A program made the position numbers and the translations under genes. The notes under the pieces are model-generated. The model was not told the DNA's origin and did not search any database. It saw nothing but the letters and a program-made list of their open reading frames with translations. 37,012 nt of DNA. Origin: Accumulibacter sp. (GTDB lineage: Bacteria > Pseudomonadota > Gammaproteobacteria > Burkholderiales > Rhodocyclaceae). The DNA lies in the NCBI RefSeq assembly GCF_023806635.1, contig NZ_JAMTDQ010000010.1:1-37012 (forward strand), read 5' to 3'. How positions within the stretch are numbered: the first letter of the stretch is position 1; each line of letters starts with the position of its first letter. Positions 14,810 through 36,980 of the stretch are shown piece by piece.

Positions 14810-15103
14810 ATGCAGGTCACCCTCGTCCATGTCCGCGTCCGTCCGGAATCGGTGGACGCCTTCATCGCCGCCACGCGGGCGAATCACGAAGCCTCGGTCG
14901 CCGAGCCGGGAAACCGGCGCTTCGACGTCCTGCAGGCACCGGAGGACGCGACACGGTTCATCCTCTACGAGGCCTACGCGACGGCAGCCGACGCTGCCGC
15001 GCACAAGCAGACGGCACACTATCTCGCCTGGCGCGACGCCGTCGCGGCGATGATGGCCGAGCCGCGCCGCGGCGAGCCGATGAACGGGCTGTTCCCGGCG
15101 TGA
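14810..15103 (+). CDS. Antibiotic biosynthesis monooxygenase (ABM) domain protein, LsrG-like
   Basis: A 97-residue single-domain protein of the dimeric alpha-beta barrel ABM family. It begins MQVTLVHVRVRPESVDAFIA and has the motif EPGNRRFDVLQ followed by FILYEAYATAADAAAHKQTAHYLAW in two segments. That pattern (N..R.DV.., F.lyE.y....A...H..T.Hy..w) is typical of the quinol monooxygenase and LsrG branch. Functions in the family range from cofactor-free oxygenation of quinols to isomerisation of phospho-AI-2, so the reaction here is not known. Its stop overlaps the GTG start of the alcohol dehydrogenase (GTGA at 15100-15103), indicating that the two act in one pathway, perhaps aldehyde or small-ketone detoxification (inference). 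Confidence 0.88.
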   Translation: MQVTLVHVRVRPESVDAFIAATRANHEASVAEPGNRRFDVLQAPEDATRFILYEAYATAADAAAHKQTAHYLAWRDAVAAMMAEPRRGEPMNGLFPA

Positions 15104-16284
15104 GCGACGCCTTCGCCCCCTTCTCGATCGCGCGCCTGCCGCGCATCGAGTTCGGCAGCGGAGCGATCGCCAGGCTGCCGGCGATCGCCGCCGGCTATGG
15201 CCGGCGTCTGCTGCTCGTCACCGGCGCGCGCTCGTTCGTCGAGTCGGCTGCCGCCGGCCGCGTCTTCGCGCAGTTGCAAGAGCTCGGCCTGGCCTGGGAA
15301 CGGCTGCCGGTGTCCGGCGAGCCGTCGCCGGAGTTCGTCGATGCGAGCGTCGCCGCGCTGCGCGCGACAGCCTGGGATTGCGTCGTCGGCATCGGTGGCG
15401 GCAGCGCGCTCGACGCGGCGAAAGCGATCGCCGGCCTGCTGCGGCCGGGCAATTCGGTCCTCGACCATCTCGAAGGCGTCGGCCCCGAATTGCCCTACCG
15501 CGGGCCGGCAACGCCGTTCATCGCCGTCCCGACGACCGCCGGCACCGGCTCGGAGGCGACGCGCAATGCCGTCCTGACGGCGCCCGGCGGCTTCAAGAAG
15601 TCGTTCCGCGACGAGCGGCTGGTGGCGGAATGGGCGATCGTCGATCCCGACCTGCTCGCCACCTGCCCACCGGCGCTGATCGCCGCCGACGGCCTCGATG
15701 CCTTCACCCAGCTCCTCGAGTCCTTCGTCGCCACGCGTGCCAACCCGCTGACCGACGCCCTCGCCCGCTCCGGCATCATGGCCGCGCGCGATGCGCTGCT
15801 CGCGCTCCATCGCGAACAGTCGGCGACGGCCCGCGCGCAGATGGCGCATGCCTCGCTGTGCTCGGGGATCTGCCTCGCGCAGACCGGGCTCGGTGCCGTG
15901 CATGGCCTCGCCTCGCCGCTCGGCGCCTTCTTCCCGATCCCGCATGGCGTCGTCTGCGGCACGCTGGTGGCGAGCGCGACCGCGTGCAACATCGCCGCCC
16001 TCGAGGCGCGCGAGCCGGACAACCCGGCGCTGCCCAAGTATGCCGAGATCGGCCGCCGCTTTGCCATGCAGAAAGGCCTCAACGGTCGCGACGCCCGCCG
16101 CTTCCTGATCGACACGCTGCGCCACTGGGAAGCCGAACTCGAGCTGCCCCGTCTGTCGGCCTACGGCATCGGCGACGACGACCTGCCGCGCATCGTCGCC
16201 GCCAGTCGCGGCGGCAGCATGAAGACCAATCCGCTCGTCCTCAGCGACGACGAACTGCACGAGATCCTCCGCGCGCGGCTCTGA
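15100..16284 (+). CDS. Iron-containing alcohol dehydrogenase family protein with altered metal site
   Basis: Cytosolic NAD(P)-dependent dehydrogenase-like protein of 394 residues, normal for the group III (Fe-ADH) family. The cofactor domain carries GIGGGSALDAAKAIAG (about 101-116) and PTTAGTGSE. By spacing, the four metal ligands of the FucO type (Asp, His, His, His) fall at Asp200, Gln204, His268 and His282. The second ligand is therefore Gln, in GLDAFTQLLES. The extra histidine found four residues after the third ligand in FucO is Ser272 (HGLASPLG). This suggests a subfamily with a different metal or weak metal binding. GTG start at 15100, overlapping the ABM gene by 4 bases. The substrate is unknown. 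Family confidence is high; activity confidence is moderate. Confidence 0.9.
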   Translation: MSDAFAPFSIARLPRIEFGSGAIARLPAIAAGYGRRLLLVTGARSFVESAAAGRVFAQLQELGLAWERLPVSGEPSPEFVDASVAALRATAWDCVVGIGGGSALDAAKAIAGLLRPGNSVLDHLEGVGPELPYRGPATPFIAVPTTAGTGSEATRNAVLTAPGGFKKSFRDERLVAEWAIVDPDLLATCPPALIAADGLDAFTQLLESFVATRANPLTDALARSGIMAARDALLALHREQSATARAQMAHASLCSGICLAQTGLGAVHGLASPLGAFFPIPHGVVCGTLVASATACNIAALEAREPDNPALPKYAEIGRRFAMQKGLNGRDARRFLIDTLRHWEAELELPRLSAYGIGDDDLPRIVAASRGGSMKTNPLVLSDDELHEILRARL

Positions 16285-16359
16285 GAGTGGCTGGCCCGCC
16301 ATCCTGCCGGCGGTGGCGGCGGACCGGTCCTGCGATCATGGTCCCGGCGCGCGGGCGGC

Positions 16360-16388
16360 TTGCATTGCCCATGGCCCTGTTAAATAAT
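16360..16388 (+). promoter_or_regulatory. Candidate promoter of the TIR-SIR2 operon
   Basis: TTGCAT (16360-16365) and AATAAT (16383-16388) are separated by 17 bp. The -10 matches in 5 of 6 positions; the -35 matches only TTG. It lies in an unusually A/T-rich patch (GTTAAATAATGG) of the 217-bp gap before the start at 16502 and is the only such patch there, so it is the best candidate for transcription of the three-gene unit. Confidence 0.5.
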
Positions 16389-16501
16389 GGCACGGCAGGC
16401 AGCGACAGCCGTCAGCGCGATGGGTGCGGCGGTCGGGCCCGGCCACTGCGGGAACCGGCGCCGTCGCCTGCCGCCGACGCCCTGTCAGGAACGGAACAAC
16501 G

Positions 16502-18052
16502 ATGAGCTACGACGCTTTCCTGAGCTACAGCAGGGAGGACGAGGACGAGGTGACGCGGATCGCCGAGCGCCTGCGCGACGAGGCCAACCTGCAGGTGTGG
16601 TTCGATCGCTGGGAACTCGTCCCGGGCGACCCGTGGCAGGAGAAGCTCGAGGAGGCACTGCGCCAGCTCAACACCAGCGTCGTCTTCATCGGCCGCAAGG
16701 GGCTGGGCAACTGGCAGGCGCCGGAGGTGCGGGCGGCGCTGAACCGCAATGCCGAACGCAAGATGCGCGTGGTACCCGTGGCGTTGCCCGGCGTCGACGT
16801 CCGCGACGAACGAATCCCGCTGTTCCTCAAGAACCTCGACTTCTGCCTCCTGCGTTCGCTCGACGACCAGCCGAACTTCGAGCGCCTTGTCGCCGGCATC
16901 ACCGGCGTCCATCCGCGCTTCGCCCGCGCGGCGCAAGCGGCACGCCCGGCGGCGACGACGCCCGAGCCGAGCGATCCGAACCGCGAGGCGATCGCCTATC
17001 TGCAGGGACACCTCGAGAACGATGCCATCTCGTTCTTCGTCGGCCGCGGCCTCATGTCGGCGCTCACCCCCTGCGACATCAGCGAGAAACTGTTGCGATC
17101 GCTCGAACTGATCGGCGAGGAGGCACCGGCGATGCTCCCGTCGCTCGACCTGGCAGCCAACTACTACGCCGTCAAGAGCGACGAGAACCGCCTGCAGACC
17201 GATGTCGCGAGCATCCTGCGCCAGGGCCACCTGCAGATACCGCCGGCGTATGGTGAGCTTGCGCTGCTGCTGCGCGGACTCTGTGCCCGCCCCGCCGGCC
17301 GCGGACGCCGGCGCTACCGCCATCTCGTCATCACCTCGGTTCTCGACACGACGATCGAGCAGGCCTTCCTGCGTGCCGGCATGGGATTCACACGCTTCGT
17401 CCAGTCGGCCTCGGGCAGGCGGCTCGACATCAACCTCTACGACCAGGTGGAGCTGAGCGACAGTGGCTTCATCCGCGTCAGCGAGCGCAGTGGCTACCAC
17501 CACTCCTTCCCGCTCGACAGCAGCGACGACATGGACCGCGTCATCGAGGAATGCGACGCCCGCAGCGTCAGCCTCGAACAGGCCAGCGCCGGCTCGCCCG
17601 ATGGCGCGCAGCTGGCGACCATCTTCGGCGACCTGCGCGAACCGATCCTCTACAAGCTGCACGGCTCACTCGACGTTCGCGACAGCTTCACCCTCTCGAC
17701 CGAACAGTATTACGAAGCCGTGTCGCGCTCGCCGTCGCACAGGGCCGTACCGGAGCAGATCGGACAGATTCTCTCCAATACGCCGATCGTCTGCCTTGGC
17801 AGCCGCATCCTCGACCCGGATTTCCGCCTCAGCTACTACCTGCTGCGCGAGTGCCTCGACGTGCGCCGCGGACAGATCCGGCGCTTCGCCGTGCATCCGC
17901 GCGATCTCGGTGACCAGCGCGACTGCAGCCACCAGATGGGGCTGCGTGCCTGGAGCCGGCTGGCGAACTGGGCGACGACGCGCTACGGTGTCGAGATGCT
18001 CGACATGCCCGGCGAACGGTTCCTCAGGCAACTGCGCGGAGGTTCGCCGTGA
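16502..18052 (+). CDS. TIR-SIR2 fusion protein (putative immune NADase effector)
   Basis: Cytosolic protein of 516 residues. Residues 1-135 are a TIR domain: MSYDAFLSYSREDEDEV, then FDRWELVPGDPW, with Glu38 at the position of the catalytic glutamate of NAD-cleaving TIRs, and a GLGNWQAPEV box (67-76). After an Ala/Pro linker (141-160), residues about 170-500 form a SIR2-like domain: FFVGRGLMS (178-186), VITSVLD (276-282), KLHGS with His387, and LGSRILDPDF (432-441). The usual GAGxS motif is G-R-G-L-M, and the catalytic Asn of T-x-N-x-D is Val280, so the SIR2 part is probably not a normal NADase and may bind a nucleotide instead. In Thoeris, TIR and SIR2 sit on separate proteins. The start at 16502 places the TIR domain at the very N-terminus; the frame is open upstream to 16424 without domain character. 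The stop overlaps the next gene's start. Confidence 0.88.
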   Translation: MSYDAFLSYSREDEDEVTRIAERLRDEANLQVWFDRWELVPGDPWQEKLEEALRQLNTSVVFIGRKGLGNWQAPEVRAALNRNAERKMRVVPVALPGVDVRDERIPLFLKNLDFCLLRSLDDQPNFERLVAGITGVHPRFARAAQAARPAATTPEPSDPNREAIAYLQGHLENDAISFFVGRGLMSALTPCDISEKLLRSLELIGEEAPAMLPSLDLAANYYAVKSDENRLQTDVASILRQGHLQIPPAYGELALLLRGLCARPAGRGRRRYRHLVITSVLDTTIEQAFLRAGMGFTRFVQSASGRRLDINLYDQVELSDSGFIRVSERSGYHHSFPLDSSDDMDRVIEECDARSVSLEQASAGSPDGAQLATIFGDLREPILYKLHGSLDVRDSFTLSTEQYYEAVSRSPSHRAVPEQIGQILSNTPIVCLGSRILDPDFRLSYYLLRECLDVRRGQIRRFAVHPRDLGDQRDCSHQMGLRAWSRLANWATTRYGVEMLDMPGERFLRQLRGGSP

Positions 18053-20160
18053 CGACGCCGATGCTCGAGCAGTACAAGCCGTACAAGGGCCCGGAGAGCT
18101 ACCAGGTCGAGGATGCCGCCTTCTTCTTCGGTCGCAGGGAAGTGGCCGACCAGATCGTCGCGCACGTGCTCTCGGCGCAGATGAGCCTGCTGCACGCCCA
18201 GTCGGGCGCCGGCAAGACCTCGCTGCTCAACGCCCTGGTGATCCCGCAACTCGAGGAGCGCGGCTGGACACCGGTGCGCGTCCTGCCGCAGAACGATCCG
18301 GTGCGGGCGACGCGGATTGCCTGCCTGCAATACGTCGTGCCACCGCCGGAAGCCGAGGCGCTTGCCCTGCGGCGCGCGCTGGACGGCCTCTTCGCCGCCG
18401 CCGATGATCCGACTCTCGACGAATTGCTGGCGCGCTACGACGATCCGGAGATTCTGCCGGTGCGCGATCCGCGCAAGCGCTGCCTCATCGCGCCGGTCCC
18501 GCTCGCAGGGCTCGGCGCCCGCTACCCGGCGCTCGACGATGGCAAGGTGACGCCCTACATCTGCCGCCTGCTGCGCTCCAGCCTCGATCTGGCAACCGTC
18601 GCCGACCATCTGGCAGCGATCGCCACCGCCTGTGGCACCGGCGGCGAGTCCTGGCAACCGGTTCGCGGCGACACGCGCGTGCGGCAGCTGCTGCAGACCC
18701 TTGACGGTCCCGGCTGTCGGGCGGCCTACGCGACGACGCTCGACTACCTCGACCTGCCGGTACGCGAACTGCGACCCTTCATCGACAACCTGCTGCGCAT
18801 CTACGGCTCGGTGCGACCGGGTTTCTGCCTCGTCCTGCTATTCGACCAGTTCGAGGAGCTGTTCACGCGCTTCGTCGACCCCGGTTCGCTGCACGCGCCG
18901 GGCAGCAACGAGATGCCGGACTGGCGCCTGCGCGTCGAGTTCATCGACGAACTGCGAACACTCTGCCGTGAGCCGCGGGCAGAAAGCGGGCGCCGTCGTG
19001 GCGGTCGGCGGTCGCTGCTGCCGGTCCGCTACCTGCTCTCGATGCGCAGCGAGTACATCGCCCAGTTGCGGCCGATCCGCGAGTTCGTTCCCGAACTCGA
19101 CCGCTCGGCCTGCCAGCTCGAGCTGCTGACCCAGGCGAGCGCACGCCAGGCGATCGAGGAACCGGCGGTGCTCTACGGCTATACCTACGAGGAAGAGTGC
19201 TTCAACCAGATCCTCGCCGACCTCTTGAAGGAAGAGCGCTACATCGAGCCCGCCCACCTCTCTCTGGTGTGCGAGAAGCTCTGGCTCGAGTCGGGCCGCC
19301 TGCTCGTCGGCCGCGATGCCCCGGCTGCCGCCGGCGAGTTGCCGACCGTGCCGCTCGCCACCTACGCCGAGCGCCTGCACGGCGCGCGCGGAATCCTGCG
19401 CGACTTCCTGCACGACTTCCTCGTCGCCCTGGCCGACGACGACGAGCGGCGCGAGGCGCTCGAACTGATCGAGCCGCTGATCACCGGCAGCGGCACGCGC
19501 AACATCGTCGAACGTCGGCAACTGATCCATTCTCCGTTCCGCGACGCGACGCGACGGACGGCGCTGCTCGACAAGCTGGTCAACCGCACGCTGGTGCGCA
19601 TCGAGCCACGCCTCGGTGGCCAGTTCATCGAGATCACGCACGAATTCCTCATCCCGGCGATCCAGGAGGCCCTGCAGAAGTATCTCTACGGCAACGTCGA
19701 GTACCAGCAGTTTCGCGTCGCGCTGCGCGCCCTGGCAGAGAGCCAGCGCGATCCCGCCGCCTCGGCCACCGACTCGGTGATCAACCGCGCCGAGTTCGCC
19801 ATCCTCGACCGCAACCGACACCGCGTGCAATGGAACGGCTGGGCGGTCGAGCAGATGCTGCGTGCCTGGCTCTGCCACGGCAGCGGCAGCGAGCAGCGGC
19901 CGACCCTGCGCTACTGGCTGGACGCCGCCAGCGGCCTCGCCTCGATCGCCGACCTCGGAACCATCCGCCAGCACCTCGCCGGCAGCGCTGCCGGACCGGG
20001 CGCACTGGCGCGGCCCGAGCTGCAGCAGATCAATGCCAACCGTGAGCGGCAGCCCTTCACGCCCGCCGAGCGGCAGGCGATCCTGCGCAGTGAACTCCTG
20101 CGCGCCACCGCCGACGAGCACGACGACGTGCGCTACTGGACCCTGCAGGTGATGCAATGA
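18049..20160 (+). CDS. nSTAND-type P-loop NTPase
   Basis: Protein of 703 residues, likely a cytosolic signal-activated ATPase switch. The N-terminus has F-F-F-G-R-R-E (25-31), the entry motif of nSTAND proteins, and Walker A AQSGAGKTS with Lys56. Walker B is LLFDQFEELFT with Asp266 and Glu269-270, highly typical of the nSTAND1 family. About 200 residues between the two Walker motifs form a long insertion, including a DPRKRC segment and a helical part. After it come the arginine-rich sensor region (YLLSMRSEYIAQL), the helical lid (ASARQAIEEPA) and a winged-helix-like ITHEFLIPA motif (about 528-536). The last ~170 residues are helical. No WD40 or TPR sensor is fused. GTG start at 18049 overlapping the TIR-SIR2 stop; the ATG at 18061 is an alternative. 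In STAND immune proteins (e.g. Avs) such a module senses an invader and activates an effector. Confidence 0.87.
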   Translation: MTTPMLEQYKPYKGPESYQVEDAAFFFGRREVADQIVAHVLSAQMSLLHAQSGAGKTSLLNALVIPQLEERGWTPVRVLPQNDPVRATRIACLQYVVPPPEAEALALRRALDGLFAAADDPTLDELLARYDDPEILPVRDPRKRCLIAPVPLAGLGARYPALDDGKVTPYICRLLRSSLDLATVADHLAAIATACGTGGESWQPVRGDTRVRQLLQTLDGPGCRAAYATTLDYLDLPVRELRPFIDNLLRIYGSVRPGFCLVLLFDQFEELFTRFVDPGSLHAPGSNEMPDWRLRVEFIDELRTLCREPRAESGRRRGGRRSLLPVRYLLSMRSEYIAQLRPIREFVPELDRSACQLELLTQASARQAIEEPAVLYGYTYEEECFNQILADLLKEERYIEPAHLSLVCEKLWLESGRLLVGRDAPAAAGELPTVPLATYAERLHGARGILRDFLHDFLVALADDDERREALELIEPLITGSGTRNIVERRQLIHSPFRDATRRTALLDKLVNRTLVRIEPRLGGQFIEITHEFLIPAIQEALQKYLYGNVEYQQFRVALRALAESQRDPAASATDSVINRAEFAILDRNRHRVQWNGWAVEQMLRAWLCHGSGSEQRPTLRYWLDAASGLASIADLGTIRQHLAGSAAGPGALARPELQQINANRERQPFTPAERQAILRSELLRATADEHDDVRYWTLQVMQ

Positions 20161-21737
20161 GCCATGATGCCGCCCATCAGATCATCGACGAGTTCCTGCA
20201 GGCCGCCGACAGCAGCGCGCAGGCGCGGCGCAACGCCGCCGTCGCACTCGCCACCATCGCCGACGACACGGCGCTGCAGAGACTGTTGCGGCTCGCCATC
20301 GGCGACGCCGACGGCAGTGTGCGCGCCACCGCCGAAGCCGAACTGGCCACCCTTTGCCGGCAGTCACCGGCGAATCTCGGCCGGGCGATGGCAGCGACCC
20401 TCGCCGGCAGCGAGCAGGCGCCGGCAGCCTACGCGCTGCTCGGCCGCCTGCAGGCGCAGGGTGCCAGCCTGCCGCCGCTGCCGGCGGCACTGCCCTGGCT
20501 GCAGCTCGCGCTGTCGCTGTTCCGTCAGGCGCGCGGTGCTGCCGGCTGGTGGTCGCGCTCGGTGCGGGCGATGGTGCCGGGATTGTTCACCGCCCTCCTC
20601 GGCGTCCTTGCCGCGCTCGCCTACATGCAGTGGCTGGCCGAGATCAGCCTGCGCAGCGAGCACGACGTCGTCGGCCCGCTGGTGGCCAGCCTGCTGTTCA
20701 TCGCCGGCCCGCTGATCGCCTTCGGCACCTGGCGAACGACGCCGTACCGCCTGCATCCCCGTCGCGGCAGCGGGGCACTGGCGGAGATCGCCTGGGCCGG
20801 CCTGCATACGGCGGCGCCGGGAGTCGTCTGCGTCGCCGCGATCCTCCTCGAGGATTCGCGGGGCGCCCTCGCGGATCCGGAAGACTGGGTCATCGCCGGC
20901 ATGCTGCTCCTGCTGCCGCCGATCGTCGCCGCTGCCATCCGCGCCGGCACCGTCGTCGCCGACGGCGCTCTCGGCAGCTGCCGGCGCCTCGTCGGCGGCT
21001 CCTTCGCCAGCATCGTCGGCGCTGCCGCCGGCCTCGTCTGCGTCACCCTCGCCACCAGCCTCTTCCATGGCATCAGCAGCAGCGTCTGTTCGCAGGTCTG
21101 GATCTGGTGGCTGCCGATCTGCTTCGGACTCGCCGGAGCCTACGCCTGGATCGACGCCCGTGTTCCGGCTGCCCCCGGAGCGGCGGCCGACAGCCAGCGG
21201 CTGACGATCTCTGCCGTCGTCCTCGGCGTTTTTCTCGTTGGCGCACTGATCCCGGTGGTGCGCGCCAGTGGCGGCATTCTCGGCCTGGCGACACCGCTCG
21301 CCAGCCTCGATGTCGCCGCGCTCGAGACGCGGCCGGCGACCATTCCCCTGCGCTCGCTGCCGGCACGCATCGATCTCAGGCTCCGCGGCGGCGAGCGCTG
21401 GAACCTCATCGTCGACATCGAACCGCCACCGGCCGAGGAATCCGGCGTCTATCTCTGGCGCGCCCGCACCCGTCTACCGCTGCAGCAGGTGGCGGCGGGC
21501 TCGATCCACGAGATCGGCGGCACGAGCAGCTCGACCCTGCTGTTCTTCGAGCGCAATCTCGATCAGCTGCTGCGCGACTCGCAAGCCCTTGGCGCCTTCC
21601 TCGACGCCTGGTGGGGCCGCCAGAGCGTGCCGCCGGTACGCCCCGGCAACGGCAGCGAAACCCCGACCGAGCCACGCGTCGTGAAACTCTCCGCCTTCCC
21701 CGTGGCGCCAACCATCCACTTCGGCAGCAAGCAGTAA
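20157..21737 (+). CDS. HEAT-like protein with seven predicted transmembrane helices
   Basis: Protein of 526 residues, third gene of the TIR-SIR2 unit, overlapping the NTPase by 4 bases (ATGA). Residues 1-100 are a cytosolic helical repeat region of HEAT type (ARRNAAVALATIADDTALQR, then SVRATAEAELATL). Seven hydrophobic segments follow at about 139-160, 171-191, 212-231, 244-263, 283-304, 313-332 and 350-369. The last ~155 residues are soluble, with a beta-rich look (IDLRLRGGERWNLIVDIEPP) and a conserved-looking FFERNLDQLL segment. With an odd helix number the C-terminal domain would be on the far side of the membrane if the N-terminus is cytosolic. I recognise no named family. By position it is either a membrane effector (pore or depolariser) or an anchor that senses envelope damage; both are inference. 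Confidence 0.8.
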   Translation: MSHDAAHQIIDEFLQAADSSAQARRNAAVALATIADDTALQRLLRLAIGDADGSVRATAEAELATLCRQSPANLGRAMAATLAGSEQAPAAYALLGRLQAQGASLPPLPAALPWLQLALSLFRQARGAAGWWSRSVRAMVPGLFTALLGVLAALAYMQWLAEISLRSEHDVVGPLVASLLFIAGPLIAFGTWRTTPYRLHPRRGSGALAEIAWAGLHTAAPGVVCVAAILLEDSRGALADPEDWVIAGMLLLLPPIVAAAIRAGTVVADGALGSCRRLVGGSFASIVGAAAGLVCVTLATSLFHGISSSVCSQVWIWWLPICFGLAGAYAWIDARVPAAPGAAADSQRLTISAVVLGVFLVGALIPVVRASGGILGLATPLASLDVAALETRPATIPLRSLPARIDLRLRGGERWNLIVDIEPPPAEESGVYLWRARTRLPLQQVAAGSIHEIGGTSSSTLLFFERNLDQLLRDSQALGAFLDAWWGRQSVPPVRPGNGSETPTEPRVVKLSAFPVAPTIHFGSKQ

Positions 21738-21914: not shown

Positions 21915-25489
<3,575 letters not shown>

Positions 25490-25493
<4 letters not shown>

Positions 25494-25723
25494 CGCCGTG
25501 TCAGCCGCCAGGGGACGCGTCGCCGTTCACCGGCGACTGCAGGGCAGCGTCCGATGGTTTCGCCAACGACGGCACGGTCCTCGGGGCTGACGAGTTCGTG
25601 CGCAGCGATCGTGTCGATCAGGTCGGTCGCCGCGGCGTAGCCGAAGATGGCGGCAAAGCCGGGAGTGAAGCCGATGCCGAGCACGACGAGCAGCATCCGC
25701 AGGAGACGGCGCGAGAGCGTCAT
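25490..25723 (-). CDS. Tiny membrane protein between sensor genes
   Basis: A 77-residue protein. Residues 1-34 contain a basic start and one hydrophobic helix ([20 protein letters not shown]), probably one membrane span; the rest is a charged helix and an Arg-rich tail. It overlaps both neighbours by 4 bases (stop of the PAS protein at 25720 and start of the kinase at 25493), which strongly supports it being real and translated. The family is not recognised. It may be a remnant of the N-terminal sensor part of a kinase, because the following kinase itself lacks a membrane region (inference). Confidence 0.65.
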
Positions 25724-26925
25724 GCCGGGTCATCCCGTTCAAACGACAGAGGATAGGGCGGCGCACGGCCGAGTTCCATCGACAGCGCGTTGATGCGCTT
25801 CTTCATGTCGATCAGCGTCAGCTCGCGGCCGATCGTCACGCGATTGAATCGCTCGAGATCGGCATTGCGCTCGCGCAACTCGTCTTCCGCCTGTTTGCGG
25901 TCGGTGATGTCGAAGATGACGCCGTCGAAGTGCAACGCCGTTCCCGATGGACCGCGGACCGGGCGCGCGTGGTCCAGTACCCAGCGGACTTCCCCGCCGG
26001 CGTGATGAATCCGATAGATGGTGCTGAACGGGCGGTCATCGCTGATCGCGGCATCGACCTCGCGCAGAACGCTGGGAAGATCCTCGGCGCAGACCAGGTC
26101 TTTCCACAGCAGTGGGTTCTCCTCGCGCAGGAAGTCCCGTGCCGCATGTCCCGTCAGCGGCAGGACGCCATCCGACATCATCGTGGCGCGCCAGGGGGGC
26201 CGCAACGCGCAGCGATAGACCGCACCCGGAATGTTGCTGGTCAGGGAGCGGAACATCTCTTCACGCTCCGCCAGCTCATCCGCCGCCCGCTTGCGCTCGC
26301 TGATGTCCCGCGAGATGCCGAACATGCCGCAGATCGTGCCCTCGCCATCGCGCAATGGCCCCTTGGTAGCGAGGAATGTCCGCTTGCCGAGCACCGTATC
26401 GAGACATTCCTCGCTCGTCTCGATCCGCTCGCCGGCAACGATGCGTTCACCGATGGCCATCAGCTTCAGGGCCTGGCCCGCCGGGAAAAGATCCCGGTCG
26501 TCGTGGCCGAGCACGTCCGCCGGCGGTCTGCCGACGTAACGGCTGGCAGCGCCGTTGAAAAGGACGTAGCGGCCCTGGGTATCCTTGGCATATATGGCGT
26601 CGTCCGAGTGGTCGGCAATGGCCTGCAGCAACTCCAGCGATTGCTGCCTTTCCTGCAGCATCGTGATTTCCTTCCGGTGCGCCGTGTCGATCCGGCGGAC
26701 CTGGCGCCTGAGCAGCAGATACAGCAGCAGTGTGGTGACGGCGACGAACAGCCAGCCCTTGAACATGCTGACGCGGATGATCTGCTCGCGGCCGGTGAAC
26801 ACGGATTCGACCGCATGGTCCGACAGCAGGAGCCAGAGTGCGGCGAACACTCCGTAGATCGATGCCACCGCGAATGGCACCTGGTCGAGCGTTCGTCGAT
26901 GCGCCACGTGTTGCTGTCGCTTCAT
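25720..26925 (-). CDS. Membrane PAS-domain protein without a kinase domain
   Basis: A 401-residue protein. Two membrane helices at about 16-38 (VASIYGVFAALWLLLSD) and 55-76 (KGWLFVAVTTLLLYLLL) are followed by a coiled helix, a PAS (about 103-215), a second PAS of the PAS_3 type (about 226-350) and a helical C-terminus with the tail ERFNRVTIGREL ... MKKRINALS ... PPYPL. There is no HisKA, GGDEF, EAL or other output. The same architecture and tail occur in the gene at 31276-32835. Both are followed by a large hybrid kinase, so I infer that they act as detached sensor subunits. The start at 26925 was chosen because it overlaps the upstream stop (ATGA); an ATG 21 bases further upstream is also in frame. 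Confidence 0.85.
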   Translation of the reverse strand: MKRQQHVAHRRTLDQVPFAVASIYGVFAALWLLLSDHAVESVFTGREQIIRVSMFKGWLFVAVTTLLLYLLLRRQVRRIDTAHRKEITMLQERQQSLELLQAIADHSDDAIYAKDTQGRYVLFNGAASRYVGRPPADVLGHDDRDLFPAGQALKLMAIGERIVAGERIETSEECLDTVLGKRTFLATKGPLRDGEGTICGMFGISRDISERKRAADELAEREEMFRSLTSNIPGAVYRCALRPPWRATMMSDGVLPLTGHAARDFLREENPLLWKDLVCAEDLPSVLREVDAAISDDRPFSTIYRIHHAGGEVRWVLDHARPVRGPSGTALHFDGVIFDITDRKQAEDELRERNADLERFNRVTIGRELTLIDMKKRINALSMELGRAPPYPLSFERDDPA

Positions 26926-27197
26926 GTCTGGTCGGGCCCGCGGCATTGCAGAGCAATGCTGACGAACTCATCGCAGGGATCGACGAAGGCGTGCACCATG
27001 GCTGGATCGAACCGGCGGGCGCAACCGGAAACGACGAGCAGGTCGGGTGGCGGACGGTCGTGCGCCAGAGACAGGCAACGTCCGCCCGATGTCGCCGCCA
27101 GAACCCGGTACCCGGTCGCCGGCAGACCCGCGAGAAGCTGCGGCTTCCCTGCCGAATCATCGACGATCAGGATCGTCACCCGCGTACCGTCTGTCAT
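26922..27197 (-). pseudogene. Internally deleted response regulator (REC start fused to HD-GYP tail)
   Basis: A 91-residue frame. The first ~57 residues (VTILIVDDSAGKPQLLAGL ... GYRVLAATSGG ... PPPDLLVVSG) are the N-terminal half of a REC domain. The acidic pair is present (DD), but at the phospho-acceptor strand the usual LLLDV reads LVVSG, so the Asp is missing. The next residues (RRFDPAMVHAFVDPCDEF) read like the extreme C-terminus of HD-GYP response regulators, where FDP-x-[LM]-V-x-A-F commonly occurs. The whole middle (rest of REC and the HD-GYP domain, about 250-300 residues) is absent. The simplest reading is an in-frame deletion of a cyclic-di-GMP phosphodiesterase response regulator. 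The frame still overlaps the PAS protein start (ATGA), so it may be kept for translation coupling. Confidence 0.6.
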
Positions 27198-27337
27198 CGA
27201 TCATGCCTCGCGCCCACCTGCAACAGTTTAGAGCAGATCCGGACTCCCGGCCGCTCCACTCCGGCCGCAGTGCTGCCGATCCACAGCCCGGCCTCGCCGG
27301 CAGCCGCGATCCTGCAACACGGCAGCCAGCCAGCCGG

Positions 27338-30300
27338 TCACCGCGGCGCCGGGATCTCGATGATCGTCGCCAGCCTCTCCAGTTCGGCATCGACGGCAAC
27401 GATCAGAAGCGGGAGATCTGATGCGGCACCGCCCGTGCCGCTCACCAGGCTCCTTTCGACCGCCTGCGCCGTCGCCGACAGCGCCCGTGCCCCGAGTGTC
27501 GCCGCCACGCCCTTGAGCGTATGGGCGATGCGCCGCGCGTCGGCGCTGGCGCCCCGCTGCAGGCAATCCTCGAGTTCGCGCATGGCGTTCCGCTGCGAAG
27601 CCAGCATCGAGCGCAGCAGGTTGACCAGCTTGCCGCGGTTGCCGCGCACCACGCCCAACCCCTGACGCAGGTCCATTCCCGTTTCCTCTGCCAGGCGGGC
27701 GATGACGGTGAGGTCGTCGGCAACGGAAGGCGCGCCAGTGGGCGCGGGCACCGCTGCACCAGCGACCGCCGCGCCGCGAGCCGGCAAGGGCGCGACCACG
27801 GGCAGCCACTTCTCCAGTACGGCATAGAGGGCCGGCGGGTCGATGGGCTTGGCGACGAAACCGACCATCCCCGCCGCCAGACACGCCTGGCGATCTTCCT
27901 CGAAGGCATTCGCGGTCATCGCCACGATCGCCACGTCCTGGCGTCCGGGCAGCGAGCGGATCGCTCGCGTCGCCTCGAAGCCGTCCATCTCCGGCATCTG
28001 CAGGTCCATCAGGACGAGGTCATAGGGATCCGTGCGCAGCCGGTCGACTGCCAGGCGGCCGTTTTCGGCCACGTCGACGCAAAGCCCGGCCTCCCGCAAC
28101 AGCTCGCCTGCCACCTCGCTGTTGAGTGGACTGTCGTCCACCAGCAGCACGCGCGCACCGCCGTGCAGGCGGCGCAGTTCGGCGGCACTGATGCCCCCCG
28201 ACTCCCTGCTGGCGGCACCCGCCATCTCGCCTCTTCCCAGCCAGGCGCTGAACCAGAACCGGCTGCCGACCCCCGGCGTGCTGTCCACACCGGCATCACC
28301 GCCCATCATCCGCGCCAGGCGACGGGTGATCGCCAGCCCGAGTCCCGTGCCGCCGAAGCGGCGGGTGGTCGACACGTCGGCCTGCTCGAAGGCCTGGAAC
28401 AGGCGCGGCAGCACGTCGGCGGCGATGCCGCTGCCGCTGTCCTCGACCTCGAAGCGGACCAGGCTGCGGTCGCTGTCGCTGTCGATCAGGCGGGCACGCA
28501 GGACGATTTCCCCCTGCTGCGTGAATTTCACCGCGTTGCCGGCGTAGTTGAGCAGGCACTGGCGCAACCGGGTGAGGTCGCCGCGCAGCCACTGCGGAAC
28601 GTGATCGCCGTCGGTGCGCACACGCAGACCCTTGGCGGCTGCGTCGCCACCGATCAGGTGGGCGACGTGGTCGAGCACTGCCCCGAGCGCGAAGTCGTGC
28701 GCTGCCAGCTCGCACTTGCCGGCTTCGATCTTCGACAGCTCGAGGATGTCGTTGATGACCGCCAGCAGATGCCTCGCCGCGCCGTCGATCTTGCCGAGCC
28801 GATCAATCGCGGGCGACGAAGTGGCATCCCGCCGCAACAGGTGGGTCAGGCCAAGGATCGCATTCATCGGCGTGCGGATCTCGTGGCTCATGTTGGCGAG
28901 GAAGGCGCTCTTCGACCGGCTGGCTGCCTCGGCCCGCCCGCGCTCTGCGCGCAGTTCGGCCGTGCGCTGTGCGACGAGATCCTCGAGGTGGTGGCGATGG
29001 GCCTCGAGTTCCTCGTCCACGCGCCGTCTCGCTGTGACGTCCTCCTTGATGGCCACGTAGTGGGAAACCGTTCCATCAGGCTGGCGGATCGGCGAAACGA
29101 TGGCGAACTCGATGTATTCGCTGCCGTCCCGGCGCCGGTTGACGAACTCCCCCCGCCAGATCTCGCCGCGCTTCAGGCTTTCCCAAAGGGCGGCATAGGT
29201 TTCCGGAGGCGTCCTGCCTGACCGCAGGATGCGCGGATTGCCGCCGATCAGCTCCGCGCGGTCGTAGCCCGTCTGGCACACGGCGGCCTCATTGACGTAC
29301 TCGATCCGACCCGAAAGATCGGTGATGACGATGCTTTCCGGGCTCTGCTCGACCGCCTGCGACAACTTGCGCAGCGCGTCGGCAGCGGCTTCGCTGCGCG
29401 CACGCGCCGCCTGCGCATCCTCCATCAGGCTCATTGCCGCGAGGCGTGCACGCTGCTGCTCGTCGAGTGCCTCGAGGAGCCTGGATTGGGCGATCTTGCC
29501 CTGCGTGATGTCCTCCGAGAAGATCACGATGCCACCCACCGTGCCGTCGGCGGCGTGCCAGGGCCGCACTTGCCAGCGCTCCCAATGCACCGTGCCGTCG
29601 GCGCGTTCGAAACGGTCCTCGTCGCAGCTGATGGTTTCGCCCGCCAGCCCGCGCCGGTGCGCCGCCTTCCACGCGTCGCCGATCTCCGGGAAGATCTCGT
29701 AATGCAAGTGACCGACGAGCTCGCGCTCGCCGAGGCGGTAGTCGTCGCGCCAGCGCTGGCTGACGGCGAGATAGCGCATGTCGCGGTCGAACATGGCCAG
29801 CGCCGCCGGTGCGTGGTCGAGCAGCAAACGCAGCCGCTGCCGGCTGTCCAGCAACGCTGCGGCACTGTCTTCCGCTTCCCGCCGCGCCGCGTCGGCTTCC
29901 GCCATCCGCCTGAGCGCCTCCAGCCTCGCCTCGCTCTGCTCCGCCAGCGCAGCCTCGAGCACCAACCCGGCCTGCCTCTGCGCGGTGACGTCGATGAAGA
30001 AAGCGAGGAATCCCTCCGGCTGCGGGATCGAAGAGATGAGGACGTCGCGTTGCCCGCCATCCTTGCAGGCGATCACGTACTCCCGCGGCCCGATGTCTTC
30101 GCCGGCGACGCTGCGCGACCAGCTCGAGCGCGCGCGCTCGCACGAAGCCGCCTCCCGGTAGGCATGCAGGAACCAGGCCTCGACATCCGGCAGGTCGTCC
30201 AGCGTATACCCGAAGAGATCCTGGAAGCGTGTGCTGAGCCTCAGGATGCGGCCGTCGGCGGCGACGAGGGCGAGCGCCAGCGGCGCGTTCTCGAGCAGGC

Positions 30301-31279
30301 GGAGGAAGCGCTCCTCGCTGGCGTCCCTGGCAGCCCTGGCGGCGTCGATGCGCACCCGCGCCGCTGCGAATTCAGTGATGCCGGACGCACCGCCAGCCGC
30401 CTCCGGGGCGACGAGCGCCGTCACTTCGCGACCGATCCGGCGGCTGGTCAGGGCGCTACCGGCGGCGCCGATGAGCGTGGCGAGCAGGATCGCGCCGGCG
30501 AGGATGGCGACCGATTCGCCTTGCGCTTGCCGATGGCTGCTGCGCGGAATCTCGACTACCACCGACCAGGCCGAATTCGCCACGGGGACGACGACGCGAT
30601 GGTCGGCATCGACGTCGCGCGCGCTGTCGAATCCGGGCGGCGAGCGTCGCGCGATGTCGGCGCCGGTCCCATCCTGCAGGGCGAGCGACCAGCCAGCGGG
30701 CAGCGCGGCCTGGTCGAGTCGTCGCTGCAGTTGCGCCAACTCGATCGTGCTGATCATCAGGTGGGTCACCTTGCCGGCGCGCAGGTGGGGCACGACGATG
30801 GCGACCAGGGGCAGCCCGGCGACCGGCCCGAAAAAGATGTCGCCGACCTGCGGTTGACCGGTCTCGAGTGCCAGCAGCGTGGCGCTGCGGCCCTTCGGTC
30901 GCGGCAGCATGGGCAACGGTTCGCCGAAGGGCCTGCGGGTGTTGAAGAGCATCTGCTGCGTGCTGCTGGCAAGGATCACGTGCGTGCCGAAGGCTTTCTG
31001 GTAAGCCAGGGCTTCGGCATAAAGCTCCGGCCAGCGTCGCGGATCGTCGGCCAGCGGCGAATCAGCCAGCATTCGCAGCGCGGCGATGCGCGCACCGAGA
31101 AAATTGTCGTGAGCGACGGCCTGGTTGTGCGCCAGGTTGGCACCCTCGCGCAGGTGCCGGGCCTCCTGTTCCTGCAGGTTGTTCCAGGCCAGCCAGACCG
31201 CGAGCAGCAGCAGGGGAGCCATGCACAGCCAGATCAGCCGCGCGAGGAAGGACGAGAGCGGGCGCGCGCGACCGGTCAC
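27338..31279 (-). CDS. Membrane multi-PAS hybrid histidine kinase with REC and Hpt domains
   Basis: Protein of 1313 residues. A membrane helix (about 13-33), a periplasmic sensor region (about 35-255; resembles a double-Cache/dCACHE-like domain by size and by segments such as [20 protein letters not shown]) and a second helix (about 258-278) are followed by PAS (about 325-435), a coiled helix, PAS (about 490-600), PAS with PAC (about 645-765), HisKA with His799 in NMSHEIRTP, HATPase ([22 protein letters not shown]), REC with Asp1092 in LVLMDLQMP and Hpt with His1253 in IAHTLKG. All relay residues are present. The start is GTG at 31279, overlapping the stop of the membrane PAS protein (GTGA). 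The periplasmic ligand is unknown. It is paralogous to the kinase at 21915-25493 over the PAS-kinase-REC-Hpt part. Confidence 0.92.
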
Positions 31280-32835
31280 CGCCGCCCCTCCGGCGCGCCA
31301 TCCTCGTCCGGCAGGAAGGCCAACGGATACGGCGGCTCGCGGCTGAGTTCCCGCGACAGCGCATTGATGGTCTTCTTCATCTCGAGCATGTCGAGCTCGC
31401 GGCCGATCGTCGCGCGGTTGAAGCGCTCGAGCTCGGCGTTGCGCTGCCGCAACTGGTCCTCGGCCAGCTTGCGCGCGGTGATGTCGCGCGACAGGACGAT
31501 GAAACGCTCGCCCTGCCCGCTGACCATCGGCTTGCGGGCGACGGAAATCTCGAAATGGCTGGGGCCAGCCGCCAGCGGCAGCATGATCGTCCGGCCGTAA
31601 TCGCTGCCGTTCCGACTGGCGGCCGCCAGGGCCGCCAGCATCGTCGCGGCCGCATCGGGCGGCAGGACGTCCGTCACCGTTCGTCCGAGCAACTGATCGA
31701 CCGGAGCGGCCAGGTGTGCTTCATGGCTGGCCATCACCTTGAGGTAGCGGCCATCGGCATCGAGCTCGAACAGCAGGTCGGGGATCGCCCGCAGCGTCGC
31801 CCCGAGGTCGTCCGCCAGTTGCTGTCGCGCCCGCTCGGCTTCCCGGCGTCGGGAGATGTCCTCGGAAAAGATGACGATGCCGCCGATCTTCCCGTCCGGC
31901 AGCAGCCACGGGCGCAGTTCCCAGCGCAGCCACAGTACGCTGCCGTCGGCACGCTCGAAGCGGTCGGCTTCGTGTCCCAGCGTCTCGCCGGCCAGCCCCC
32001 GCCGATGCAGTTCCTTCAGATCCTCGCCGATTTCGGGGAAGACCTCGTAGTGGGAACGGCCGATGATGCCACCCGCGGGCAGAGCGAAATCCTTCAACCA
32101 GCGGTTGCTCGCGGCCAGGTAGCGCATTTCGCGATCGAACATCGCCAGCGCCGCCGGCGAGTGCTCGACCAGGAGGCGCAGCCGCACCGCGCTCTCCAGC
32201 AGGGCATCCCGCGCCTCCTTGCTGGCGGTGATGTCGCGCGAGATGCCGAAGGTGCCGATGATCTGCTGCCCGGCATCGCGCAGCGGTCCCCTGGTGGCGA
32301 GAAAGGTCCGCTGGCCGAGGGCCGTGTCGAGCGTTTCCTCGCTGGTCTCGATGCTGCCGCTGGCGATGATGCGCGCGGCGATCTCGCGCAGCATCGCGGC
32401 CTGTTCCAGCGGGAAGAAATCGCGCTCGTCGCGGCCCAGGACTTCGCCTGTCGGCTTGCCGAGAAAGCGGCTGGCGGCGGGGTTGAAGAGCCGGTAGCGA
32501 CCCTGCAGGTCCTTGGCGAAGATCGCATCTTCCGAATGCTCGGTGATGGCGGCGAGCAACTCATGGGTGCGCTGCCGCTCGAGCAGGTTGTCGACTTCGC
32601 GTCGCAGCGACGCATGCAGCGCGCCGAGGTAATGCTCGACGAGGAAGAACAGCAGCAGCGACGTCGCTGCGACATAGAACCAGCCTTTCAGCATGCTGGC
32701 GCGGATGATGGCGTCCGGGTCGCTGAAGAGCCACTCGACCACCTTGTCCGAGAACAGAATCCACAGGCAACCGGTCACCGCATAGACCAGGGCGACCACC
32801 AGGGCCGACCGCTGCGTGTCGCGGCCGTCGCTCAT
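31276..32835 (-). CDS. Membrane PAS-domain protein without a kinase domain (paralogue)
   Basis: A 519-residue protein. Two membrane helices (about 10-28, [19 protein letters not shown]; about 45-66, [17 protein letters not shown]), a coiled helix, a PAS (about 95-205), a second PAS of the [10 protein letters not shown] type (about 217-325), a third PAS (about 345-465), and the C-terminal tail [12 protein letters not shown] ... MKKTINALS ... PPYPL. It matches the protein at 25720-26925 from end to end, with one more PAS. It has no output domain. The start at 32835 gives [18 protein letters not shown] and places the first helix at the N-terminus; the frame is open upstream to 33105 without sensible sequence. 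Overlap with the following kinase indicates coupling. Confidence 0.85.
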
Positions 32836-32938
32836 GCGCACCCTCGCGCTGAGCCCAGCCGCGTCCGGCGATGGCAGCGAACGCGCCGAAGTCGTCCACG
32901 CGGCACGAATCGAACGCAGCGACCGCGTCGGCGCGGGG

Positions 32939-34813
<1,875 letters not shown>

Positions 34814-34826
34814 TCGATCCTCCGAC

Positions 34827-36980
34827 TCAACCCGCGCGGCACGGGAAAGCGATGCGGAACTCGGTGCCGTCCTCGCAGCCGATGTCGACCACGCCCTGCA
34901 ACTGGCTGACCAGCATGAACACCAGCTGCAACCCCAGGCTGTCGCTGCTGCGCGGGTCTCCCGGCGGCAGGCCGACGCCGTCGTCCGCCACCGACAGCGT
35001 CAGCAGCCCCTTCGGCAACATCCCTGCCGCGACGACGATCTGCCCGCTGCGGCCCCCCGGGAAAGCGTGCTTCAAGGCATTGGACACCAGTTCGTTGATG
35101 ATCAGCCCACAGGGCACGGCCTGATCCAGCGGCAGCGAGAGGTCGTCGATCCGCTGCTCCAGCCGGACGTTGGCGGCCACCGAGCCGGCCGCGTGCCACA
35201 ACGGCGCGCACAGACTGCCGACGTACTGCCGCAGGCCGATCCGTGCGAGACTGCCCGACCGGTAGAGCGCTTCGTGCAGCAGCGCCATCGACCGGATCCG
35301 GCTCTGCGTGTCGAGCAGCGTCTCCCGCGCCTCCGGGATCTGCGTCCGGTTCAGTTGCAGGTTGAGCAGGCTGGTGATGATCTGCAGGTTGTTCTTCACC
35401 CGGTGATGGACTTCCTTCAACAGGACGGTCTTCTCCTCCAGCGACGCGCGCAGGCTTTCCTCGGCCTCCTTGCGATCGCTGATGTCGGTGCAGATCGCGC
35501 CCAGGGCATCGATCCGGCCACCGGCATCACGCAGCGGGAACTTGACCGAGAGATAGGTGCGCAGGCCATCGTCGAGCCGCGCCGACTCCTCGAATTCCAG
35601 ACAACGGCCCGCCTCGAGCGCCTGCCGGTCATTGCTCGAAAAGGCTGCGGCCTCGGCCTGCGGGAAAATCTCGGCGACCGTGCGACCAAGCAGTCGTTCC
35701 CGCGGCAGGCCGAGCACGGCTTCCGTATGGCGATTGACGACCAGGAATCGTCCCTGCAAATCCTTGATCCAGACCAGGCTTGCGGCGTTGTCGAAGAACG
35801 CCTGCAGGCGCCCCTCGCTGGCTGCAAGTCTCTGGTTGCTTTGCGCGGTCGCACGCAGCGCGGCGGCGACGCGCAGCTGACCCCAGGCGAGAACGCCCAT
35901 CAGGGCCGCCAGCAGTGCGCTGCCGATGCCGCCGGAAAAGGCGATCAGCTTCGACTCGTCGGTGTTCAGCCGCGCGTCGAATGTGGTACGGGAAGTCACC
36001 AGCAGCGACCAGCGATGGCCACCGTACTCGATCGGGCGCAGCATGCGAAACGCTGCCCCCCCGGTGGCACGATGCGCCTCGTCGCTGTCGAACATCAGGG
36101 CCTCGGGCGCAATCGTGGCGCCATCGTAGATCTCGATGTCGAGCCCGGCGAGCACGCCCGCCAATCCGACTGCTCCGAGCACGCCGTGCATCAGGTCGTA
36201 CATGCGCAAGGGCGAATAGGCCCAGCCCAGCAGATTGGCCCGGCGTTCCTCCACGGTGTCGTGGGCGAGACCGCGACGATAGACCGGCACGTAGATGAGG
36301 AAACCAGGCTGGACGCCGGTCTTCGCTTCCTGCACCAGCGTCACCTTGGCCGACAGGCTCGCCCGGTTTTCGTCGCGCGCCCGCGCCATTGCCGCCTGGC
36401 GCACCGGCTCCGAGAACATGTCGTAGCCGAACGCGCGCAGGTTGCGGCCGGAGAACGGCTCCAGGTAGATGATCGACGTATGGACCTCGCGCTCGCCATC
36501 GGGACGGATGGCGTAATCGGGGAAGCCTTCGCGGCGGATGGCGGCGGTGTGCGCCGCCTTGCGCCCGGGCGGAACGAGCAGCGAGAAACCGACGCCCAGG
36601 ATGCCCGGGTAGCGCTCGTCGAGCCGCAAGGCGGCGACGTAGGCGGCAAACTCCTGCCGCGTCACATCCTCCGAGGCGCCGAACAGGCCGACGACTCCGC
36701 GCAGCACCTGAACGTTGCCATCGAGCTGGCGCTCGATGGCGTCCACCACCCTGTCGGCCGAGAACTCGAACTCCGCCGCCAACATGCGCTCGGCGTCCTG
36801 GCGGGCGGCCTGCCACAGCCAACCGGTCACCGCCAGCCCCAGGAGCAGGACCAGCCACGGCAGCAGCAACAACTGTCGTCGCCGGCTGGCCGTGACCTCG
36901 ACCGAGCGCTGCCGGCCGGCAGCGAGCGCGCGCAGCACGTCCCGCCACCGCCGCAGGCTAGGGCTGCCCTTTACCCGCAA
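34827..36980 (-). CDS. CHASE-PAS-HisKA_2 sensor histidine kinase (N-terminus uncertain)
   Basis: About 700 residues. After a basic N-terminus and a membrane helix ([20 protein letters not shown]) there is a CHASE domain (motifs [41 protein letters not shown]), a second membrane helix ([20 protein letters not shown]), a PAS ([14 protein letters not shown]), and a HisKA_2/HATPase transmitter with [16 protein letters not shown] as phosphorylation box, [12 protein letters not shown] as N-box and DDGVGLP as G-box. CHASE domains sense small extracytoplasmic ligands. The frame stays open to the window edge. A TTG at 36980 is used as the boundary, but a GTG at 36938 is an equally possible start, and base composition changes abruptly beyond about 36970. 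It is the first gene of the minus-strand sensor cluster. Confidence 0.88.

Follow-up and report, generated by a model that had tools for sequence, protein, structure and literature searches.

Three overlapping genes, here called A, B and C, lie on the plus strand of a 37,012-nucleotide stretch of Accumulibacter sp. DNA (NCBI RefSeq assembly GCF_023806635.1, contig NZ_JAMTDQ010000010.1, positions 1 to 37,012; hereafter the window). Based on their domains, motifs and conservation, we propose, with a probability of roughly one half, that they encode a split, membrane-linked receptor resembling the NLRs (nucleotide-binding leucine-rich repeat receptors), in which a TIR domain would be the effector and a SIR2 domain that is probably no longer an enzyme would serve as adaptor. 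From these sequences we infer the following mechanism. C would be an inner-membrane protein whose HEAT-like N-terminus faces the cytoplasm and whose variable C-terminal domain lies outside, and it would either detect an envelope-level event or anchor the complex. B would be the ATP switch of the STAND type, exchanging its nucleotide and clustering. The SIR2 part of A would dock A to B, and the TIR domains of A, paired when B clusters, would cleave NAD+, which makes A the executioner, with abortive immunity or programmed cell arrest or death as the outcome. The genes and the features that matter for this proposal (all on the plus strand; NTPase, nucleoside triphosphatase) are:

16502..18052, +, gene A, 516 residues, TIR domain and degenerate SIR2-like domain
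16517..16891, +, TIR_2 domain of A, residues 6-130 (Pfam E 3.5e-22)
16712..16726, +, WxxxE motif of A, W71-E75, with the predicted catalytic Glu of the TIR domain
17042..17056, +, GRGLM in place of the sirtuin motif GAGxS (motif names from PMC12931631)
17333..17347, +, TSVLD at the site of the sirtuin motif TTNxD, with Val280 for the catalytic Asn
17636..17947, +, recognisable SIR2_2 match of A, residues 379-482, with His387 of KLHG retained (Pfam E 2.4e-10)
18049..20160, +, gene B, 703 residues, nSTAND1 NTPase
18199..18222, +, Walker A motif of B, QSGAGKTS, with Lys56
20157..21737, +, gene C, 526 residues, weak HEAT-like N-terminus, about seven transmembrane segments and a C-terminal domain
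20571..21260, +, seven hydrophobic segments of C, residues 139-368 (hydropathy)
21267..21734, +, C-terminal domain of C, where conservation is lowest within the protein

The fusion of a TIR to a SIR2-like domain in gene A, claimed in an earlier reading of this DNA (the original prediction), is borne out by Pfam, with the TIR_2 and SIR2_2 matches listed above. The same prediction made the SIR2 domain an executor, and this we reject: the Asn that SIR2 NADases need is Val280 in all seven known loci of the cassette, and both sirtuin motifs are lost in 7/7 (GRGLM and TSVLD), so that the SIR2 domain of A is probably not an NADase. In Avs5, where GAGxS and TTNxD are the sirtuin motifs, the N110A and D112A mutants are inactive and immunity is abolished (PMC12931631), and in ThsA the N112A mutation abolishes NAD+ cleavage (PMC7272460). 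Loss of the HG His alone proves little, because about half of the Avs5 homologues carry Asn there (PMC12931631). In our alignment A5 (34 hand-chosen rows, 19 of them from the 60 phylum loci described below), 23 reference rows hold both Asn and His, and the window's row holds Val and His.

The TIR domain, on the other hand, carries the catalytic-Glu motif, as in STAND-class conflict systems with a TIR effector. A phmmer alignment pairs NWQAPEV of A with DWTNYEL of AbTIR, whose WxxxE motif contains E208 (PMC11374754), which places the motif of A on W71-E75 and makes E75 the predicted catalytic Glu. Both W71 and E75 are identical in 7/7 loci, as is Asp35, which aligns with the Asp that we take as D167 of AbTIR (numbering reckoned from the alignment). 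Glu38, earlier named as the catalytic residue, sits just after D35 and outside WxxxE; given the AbTIR alignment and the invariance of W71-E75, we reject it in that role.

Gene B is the nSTAND NTPase that had been predicted (Pfam nSTAND1, E 2.4e-38), with intact Walker A (Lys56) and Walker B (Asp266 of DQFEELF) motifs that hold in the five B proteins, of seven loci, that were aligned (alignment A2). The Pfam scan recognised no WD40, TPR or other sensor repeats in B, and our hydropathy script found no hydrophobic segment in either A or B. For C, six hydrophobic segments score at least 1.6 and a seventh 1.51 in our own Kyte-Doolittle script; an eighth stretch, directly after the seventh, scores 1.38, and the GES scale marks more. 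The loops of C hold, summed, 11 Lys/Arg on the inner side against two on the outer, and because of this positive-inside count we forecast, given seven helices, an N-terminus inside and a C-terminal domain outside. The latter has a mean identity of 70%, against 80-85% in the rest of C. The original description of C as HEAT repeats joined to seven membrane helices stands for its membrane part, whereas the HEAT_2 match at the N-terminus (19.4 bits) falls below the Pfam cut-off of 27.7. The sensing role once given to the NTPase is better divided, B acting as the putative switch and C as the candidate sensor or anchor.

The three genes also belong together. Full-length A, B and C occur jointly in six of 28 genomes of the genus Accumulibacter (seven loci, two of them in genome G163), in the same order and with the same overlaps, GTGA between A and B and ATGA between B and C, in 7/7; the overlapping frames predicted in the window recur in the six other loci. 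No full-length copy of any of the three was found without the other two among these 28 genomes, many of which hold partial matches (TIR-only or NTPase-only). Because of this co-occurrence, which the original prediction had set as its first check, and of the low ratios of nonsynonymous to synonymous substitution (dN/dS), the association is more than chance. Measured against the window, dN/dS is 0.08-0.16 for A (five comparisons), 0.15-0.18 for B (three) and 0.27-0.41 for C (five), and all three genes are under purifying selection. A run of N interrupts B in G156. Of the two G163 loci, one has a frame break in B and the other a C that is truncated at a contig edge; the alignment of C (A3) holds six of the seven proteins.

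Searches beyond the genus returned parts of the cassette. With gene A, genome contigs gave six loci, the five full-length ones all from Accumulibacter and the sixth (Chloroflexi) TIR-only. The SIR2 part of A was found in two of 399 genomes of the order, the window's own and a marginal one (E 6e-4, internal stop), and C in one of 369 genomes of the class, the window's own. Plasmids gave no match for the SIR2 part of A or for C, with TIR-only matches to A in 13 records and partial NTPase matches to B in 19. Phage records, searched with A and not with B or C, held one TIR-only match, and a scan of viral contigs, which finds close relatives only and did not include B, gave no relative of A or C. 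Ten of the 11 places with TIR-only paralogues were fetched, and tblastn found a B or C homologue in none. Six such TIR proteins (L121-L126; about 425-475 residues, their TIR domains 42-47% identical to that of A) lie in stretches that contain neither a B nor a C homologue; to us their C-terminal half looks like a methyltransferase.

A wider pattern emerges from SIR2 genes outside the cassette. Within the genus, 30 of 49 non-cassette SIR2_2 places were read, with STAND neighbours sought within 1.5 kb; in the phylum survey, 60 loci among the matches listed were hand-picked, mostly for open frames of 400-1200 residues. The Asn is kept in 25 of the 27 assessable genus loci (its site is not assessable in L108, L110 and L111) and in 58 of the 60 phylum loci. 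Only four of the 30 genus loci have a STAND gene within range: the TIR-SIR2 fusions L100 and L101, which keep the Asn and have Phe for His; L104, a DUF4062-like-SIR2 fusion with Gly for Asn; and L120, a SIR2-TIR fusion with Thr for Asn and Leu for His. In longer stretches these places are L131 and L132, L133 and L134, respectively. The phylum loci added one further separate STAND neighbour (L178, a SIR2-TIR fusion that has neither residue and coincides with L224), and they include L157, a single SIR2-STAND chain, which is intact. On plasmids, where residues were judged by eye, the SIR2-TIR gene L137 lies beside an nSTAND1 gene and is degenerate, and the SIR2 genes without TIR beside nSTAND1 keep both Asn and His (3/3; L138, L139 and L141).

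Searching 399 order genomes with the L134 protein yielded nine full-length SIR2-TIR loci in eight genomes (L202-L209 and L224). The STAND match starts 24-89 bp past the SIR2-TIR frame in 9/9, and Asn and His are both lost. Taken together with the seven loci of A, all fusion-plus-STAND loci have lost Asn or His (21/21; the Asn in 19/21), with the STAND gene on the same strand, and they fall into four architectures, namely A, L131/L132, L133 and SIR2-TIR. Outside the cassette, Pfam identifies the STAND partner as nSTAND1 for L131, L133, L134, L137, L202, L203, L207 and L224; for the others it is a tblastn match only. L131 and L132 (genomes G157 and G155; Pfam and PADLOC applied to L131 of the two) show a TIR, a weak CHAT-like and a SIR2 part in a frame of 863 residues, followed by a gene with nSTAND1, a transmembrane segment and WD40 repeats. 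The DUF4062 match of L133 is below the cut-off (E 0.0093).

Three other rules were tried and rejected. A first and simpler one, by which a STAND neighbour always goes with a degenerate SIR2, fails on the intact L138, L139 and L141; a second, that any TIR-SIR2 fusion is degenerate, fails on L156, intact and without a STAND neighbour; and a third, that Asn loss is peculiar to STAND pairs, fails on seven TWYD-type loci without STAND. These last (L216-L220, L222 and L227), retrieved in the same search of order genomes with L134, are SIR2-like proteins of 284-366 residues, with a TWYD-type motif for TTNYD and no TIR or STAND neighbour, and by their sequence form another degenerate SIR2 family; L170, likewise without such neighbours, has TLWYD.

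The partners of the fusions bear on the role of C. Ten of them were read for helices (L131, L133, L134, L137 and L230-L235), and each carries one segment past the NTPase, with Lys/Arg richer on its NTPase side (10/10 in both respects). At least eight are nSTAND1 by Pfam (L233 and L235 without, among the matches listed); after the helix come WD40 repeats in six, an FGE-type domain in one and, among the matches listed and at the thresholds applied, nothing recognised in three. C brings helices with the same charge sense, and because the ten partners carry on the NTPase the helix that C supplies here, C may, by parallel design and not by homology, be the detached sensor half of an nSTAND1 transmembrane receptor. 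The nSTAND1 partner with a transmembrane segment read in L232 ends in an FGE-sulfatase domain, a domain of C-lectin-type fold that is diversified by diversity-generating retroelements in other systems (PMC10907252). More tentatively than for the cassette itself, we suggest that systems of a TIR or TIR-like domain, a dead SIR2 and an nSTAND1 membrane receptor could form an unrecognised class of transmembrane immune receptors, born by a hand-over of the effector: an ancestral active SIR2 paired with nSTAND1 would have gained a TIR domain, NAD+ cleavage would have passed to the newcomer, and SIR2 would have stayed only as docking adaptor. The Accumulibacter cassette would be the most split form of this class, its sensing membrane part being encoded by a separate, third gene.

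Several points weigh against these proposals. The 21 loci amount at best to about four independent cases, and the nine SIR2-TIR loci are one family and not nine tests, since the query that retrieved them was itself degenerate. The search for a STAND neighbour reached no further than 1.5 kb in the genus and about 4 kb in the phylum, and the SIR2 parts of A and of the other fusions are only 14-23% alike. Degenerate SIR2-like genes exist without TIR or STAND (the seven TWYD-type loci and L170), and L158, L182 and L189, of the 60 phylum loci and without a STAND neighbour, have no plain HG motif. Membrane helices also occur in partners of SIR2 alone (one in L139, three in L141, none in L138), and the eighth stretch of C, if a helix, would put its C-terminus inside. 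Within A, His387 is kept; because the AlphaFold model is useless (mean predicted local distance difference test, pLDDT, 38.9), the SIR2 reading beyond residues 379-482 rests on the motif alignment, and a profile of the SIR2 part found no match in the PDB. Finally, inheritance at a single site, described below, is unlike that of most phage-defence systems.

As to known systems, the expectation that no named one would match the cassette as a unit held: in PADLOC, A matches TIR models in part, B has weak P-loop matches (PtuA 0.015, PbeC 0.085) and C has none, and no Avs-named hit appears for any of the three up to E 1. In the literature searched, which excludes most subscription journals, the phrases TIR-SIR2, SIR2-TIR and TIR-sirtuin are absent, no paper treats Accumulibacter together with Thoeris, and, among the papers listed and in the text accessible there, no description of a TIR/SIR2/STAND pairing was found. 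Avs5 (AVAST type 5; PMC12931631) resembles A and B in its SIR2 and STAND modules, with NAD+ as presumed target. It is, however, an nSTAND3 protein with SIR2 and STAND in one chain and an active SIR2 (GAGxS, TTNxD), whereas the cassette has nSTAND1 as a separate gene, GRGLM and TSVLD for the two motifs, a fused TIR domain and an added membrane protein. The Swarozyc/DUF4062 systems (PMC13174449) combine a TIR-like NADase with an auxiliary sensing part, as the cassette would; the tested KpSwz is described as joining a TIR-like domain to a helix-turn-helix/winged auxiliary domain, and the cassette has TIR_2 instead. L133, with its DUF4062-like part, degenerate SIR2 and nSTAND1-WD40 partner, is a relative in design. 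The STAND/TIR conflict systems with effector-associated domains (EADs; PMC8195603, PMC7159879, PMC10907252) likewise consist of genes for an adaptor-linked effector and a STAND sensor, reuse inactive enzymes, and are enriched in multicellular or aggregating bacteria; their adaptors are small EADs, in contrast to the whole degenerate SIR2 domain of the cassette. Comparable too are the unnamed pairs described above (L134, L137, L202-L209 and L224), which also set a gene with TIR and degenerate SIR2 beside a STAND gene; there, unlike in the cassette, the TIR domain is C-terminal and, in the eight partners read, the helix and a C-terminal region are fused to the NTPase.

The genomic setting of the cassette raises the question of its use. 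Two features lie directly upstream:

15100..16284, +, Fe-containing alcohol dehydrogenase gene, given as context and not claimed as part of the system
16357..16390, +, upstream patch GGCTTGCATTGCCCAT..CTGTTAAATAATGG, candidate promoter or operator, kept in 6/7 loci

The 34-bp patch, which lies about 114 bp ahead of A, stands out from the less conserved DNA around it in six of the seven loci; from the seventh (G151) it is missing, and gene A there starts 5 bp past the stop codon of the dehydrogenase. The promoter-like patch of the original prediction is conserved in those six loci, although a consensus scan called no sigma-70 promoter there. An ABM gene and the dehydrogenase gene precede the cassette in 7/7 loci, the latter directly upstream, with an ACT-domain gene ahead of both in 6/7. 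The dehydrogenase is present in 16 of the 28 genus genomes (E 1e-60 or better), and in the ten of these that lack the cassette the stretch fetched downstream holds no match to A, B or C, except in G159, where a TIR-only match lies at a distance of about 8 kb. The six carrier genomes form one clade (support 100/100 in an rpoB tree of 27 of the 28 genomes, G155 being omitted for its split gene). Downstream of C the DNA has no similarity to that of the window in 5/5 compared loci (up to 3 kb): L044 and L048 have PAS/GAF kinases, and the genes scanned in L046 encode a DUF2269 protein, a PIN-domain protein and an ABC transporter that gave an AAA_21 hit. In the window itself, PAS-rich hybrid histidine kinases and other PAS proteins follow one another on the minus strand (21915-36980), and in G161 the cassette is followed by an 1807-residue protein that has an eCIS-core domain and also gave a Lactamase_B-fold hit (L045:479-5899). 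Besides the PIN gene and the AAA_21-hit transporter protein of L046, no defence system or mobile element was recognised in the flanks, which were scanned with Pfam and not with PADLOC. Most simply, the cassette was gained once and then inherited vertically, without a visible defence island. A core position in all relatives, which the original prediction held to speak against it, is found inside this one clade and not across the genus, where the cassette is absent from 22 of 28 genomes; because the position is core within the clade, this counts partly against defence.

Accumulibacter grows in dense microcolonies. Phage defence is a plausible role for the cassette, and in our view the likeliest, because its modules serve conflict systems and because of this mode of growth, conflict systems being reported as enriched in multicellular bacteria (PMC10907252). 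The strongest rival, unlikely though it seems to us, keeps the same mechanics and makes the cassette a resident stress-response or programmed-arrest circuit of an aggregate-forming organism, with an envelope or metabolic trigger. The single clade and site, the vertical inheritance and the low dN/dS would fit such a circuit, as would the PAS kinases and metabolic genes of the flanks and the results given above for plasmids (SIR2 part of A, and C), viral contigs (A and C, close relatives only) and phage records (A only, one TIR-only match). Against it, TIR, SIR2 and STAND modules are found mostly in conflict systems, and the related SIR2-TIR and STAND pairs are patchy (eight of 399 order genomes).

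It is quite improbable that the cassette is Thoeris in one chain, the TIR domain making cyclic ADP-ribose and the fused SIR2 binding it or still consuming NAD+. Thoeris does pair TIR with SIR2 (ThsB, and ThsA with its SIR2-SLOG architecture; PMC7272460); the SIR2 parts of L131 and L133 match ThsA models and the TIR of L131 a ThsB model, and A retains His387. Nevertheless, in A both domains share one polypeptide beside STAND and membrane genes, the Asn of an active SIR2 is Val280 and GAGxS is lost in 7/7, neither Pfam (no SLOG or Macro domain at E 1; only TIR, a sub-threshold SEFIR and SIR2) nor hydropathy finds a fused SLOG, Macro or transmembrane sensor, and the ThsB matches are weak (E 0.0016 and 0.0057).

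Other conflict systems often employ membrane effectors. That C is itself the executioner, a membrane pore or channel for which A and B only produce and relay the signal, is nonetheless improbable as well: its approximately seven helices and faster change would suit such a role, and yet the membrane part of the ten related pairs is a single helix on the NTPase with a C-terminal region, a poor pore, and the TIR catalytic motif is kept.

If the SIR2 domain of A is indeed dead, labelling SIR2 domains as NADases from a Pfam hit alone misleads. If the proposal of a split receptor with a dead-SIR2 adaptor is true, SIR2, which bacterial defence is known to use as an effector that burns NAD+, would have a second role in which, enzymatically dead, it connects an NLR-like switch to a TIR effector, and the cassette would offer a direct test of how STAND proteins recruit TIR domains when none of the small adaptors described to date is involved. 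This connector role would then occur in membrane-spanning receptors, placing the sensing of infection or stress at the cell envelope.

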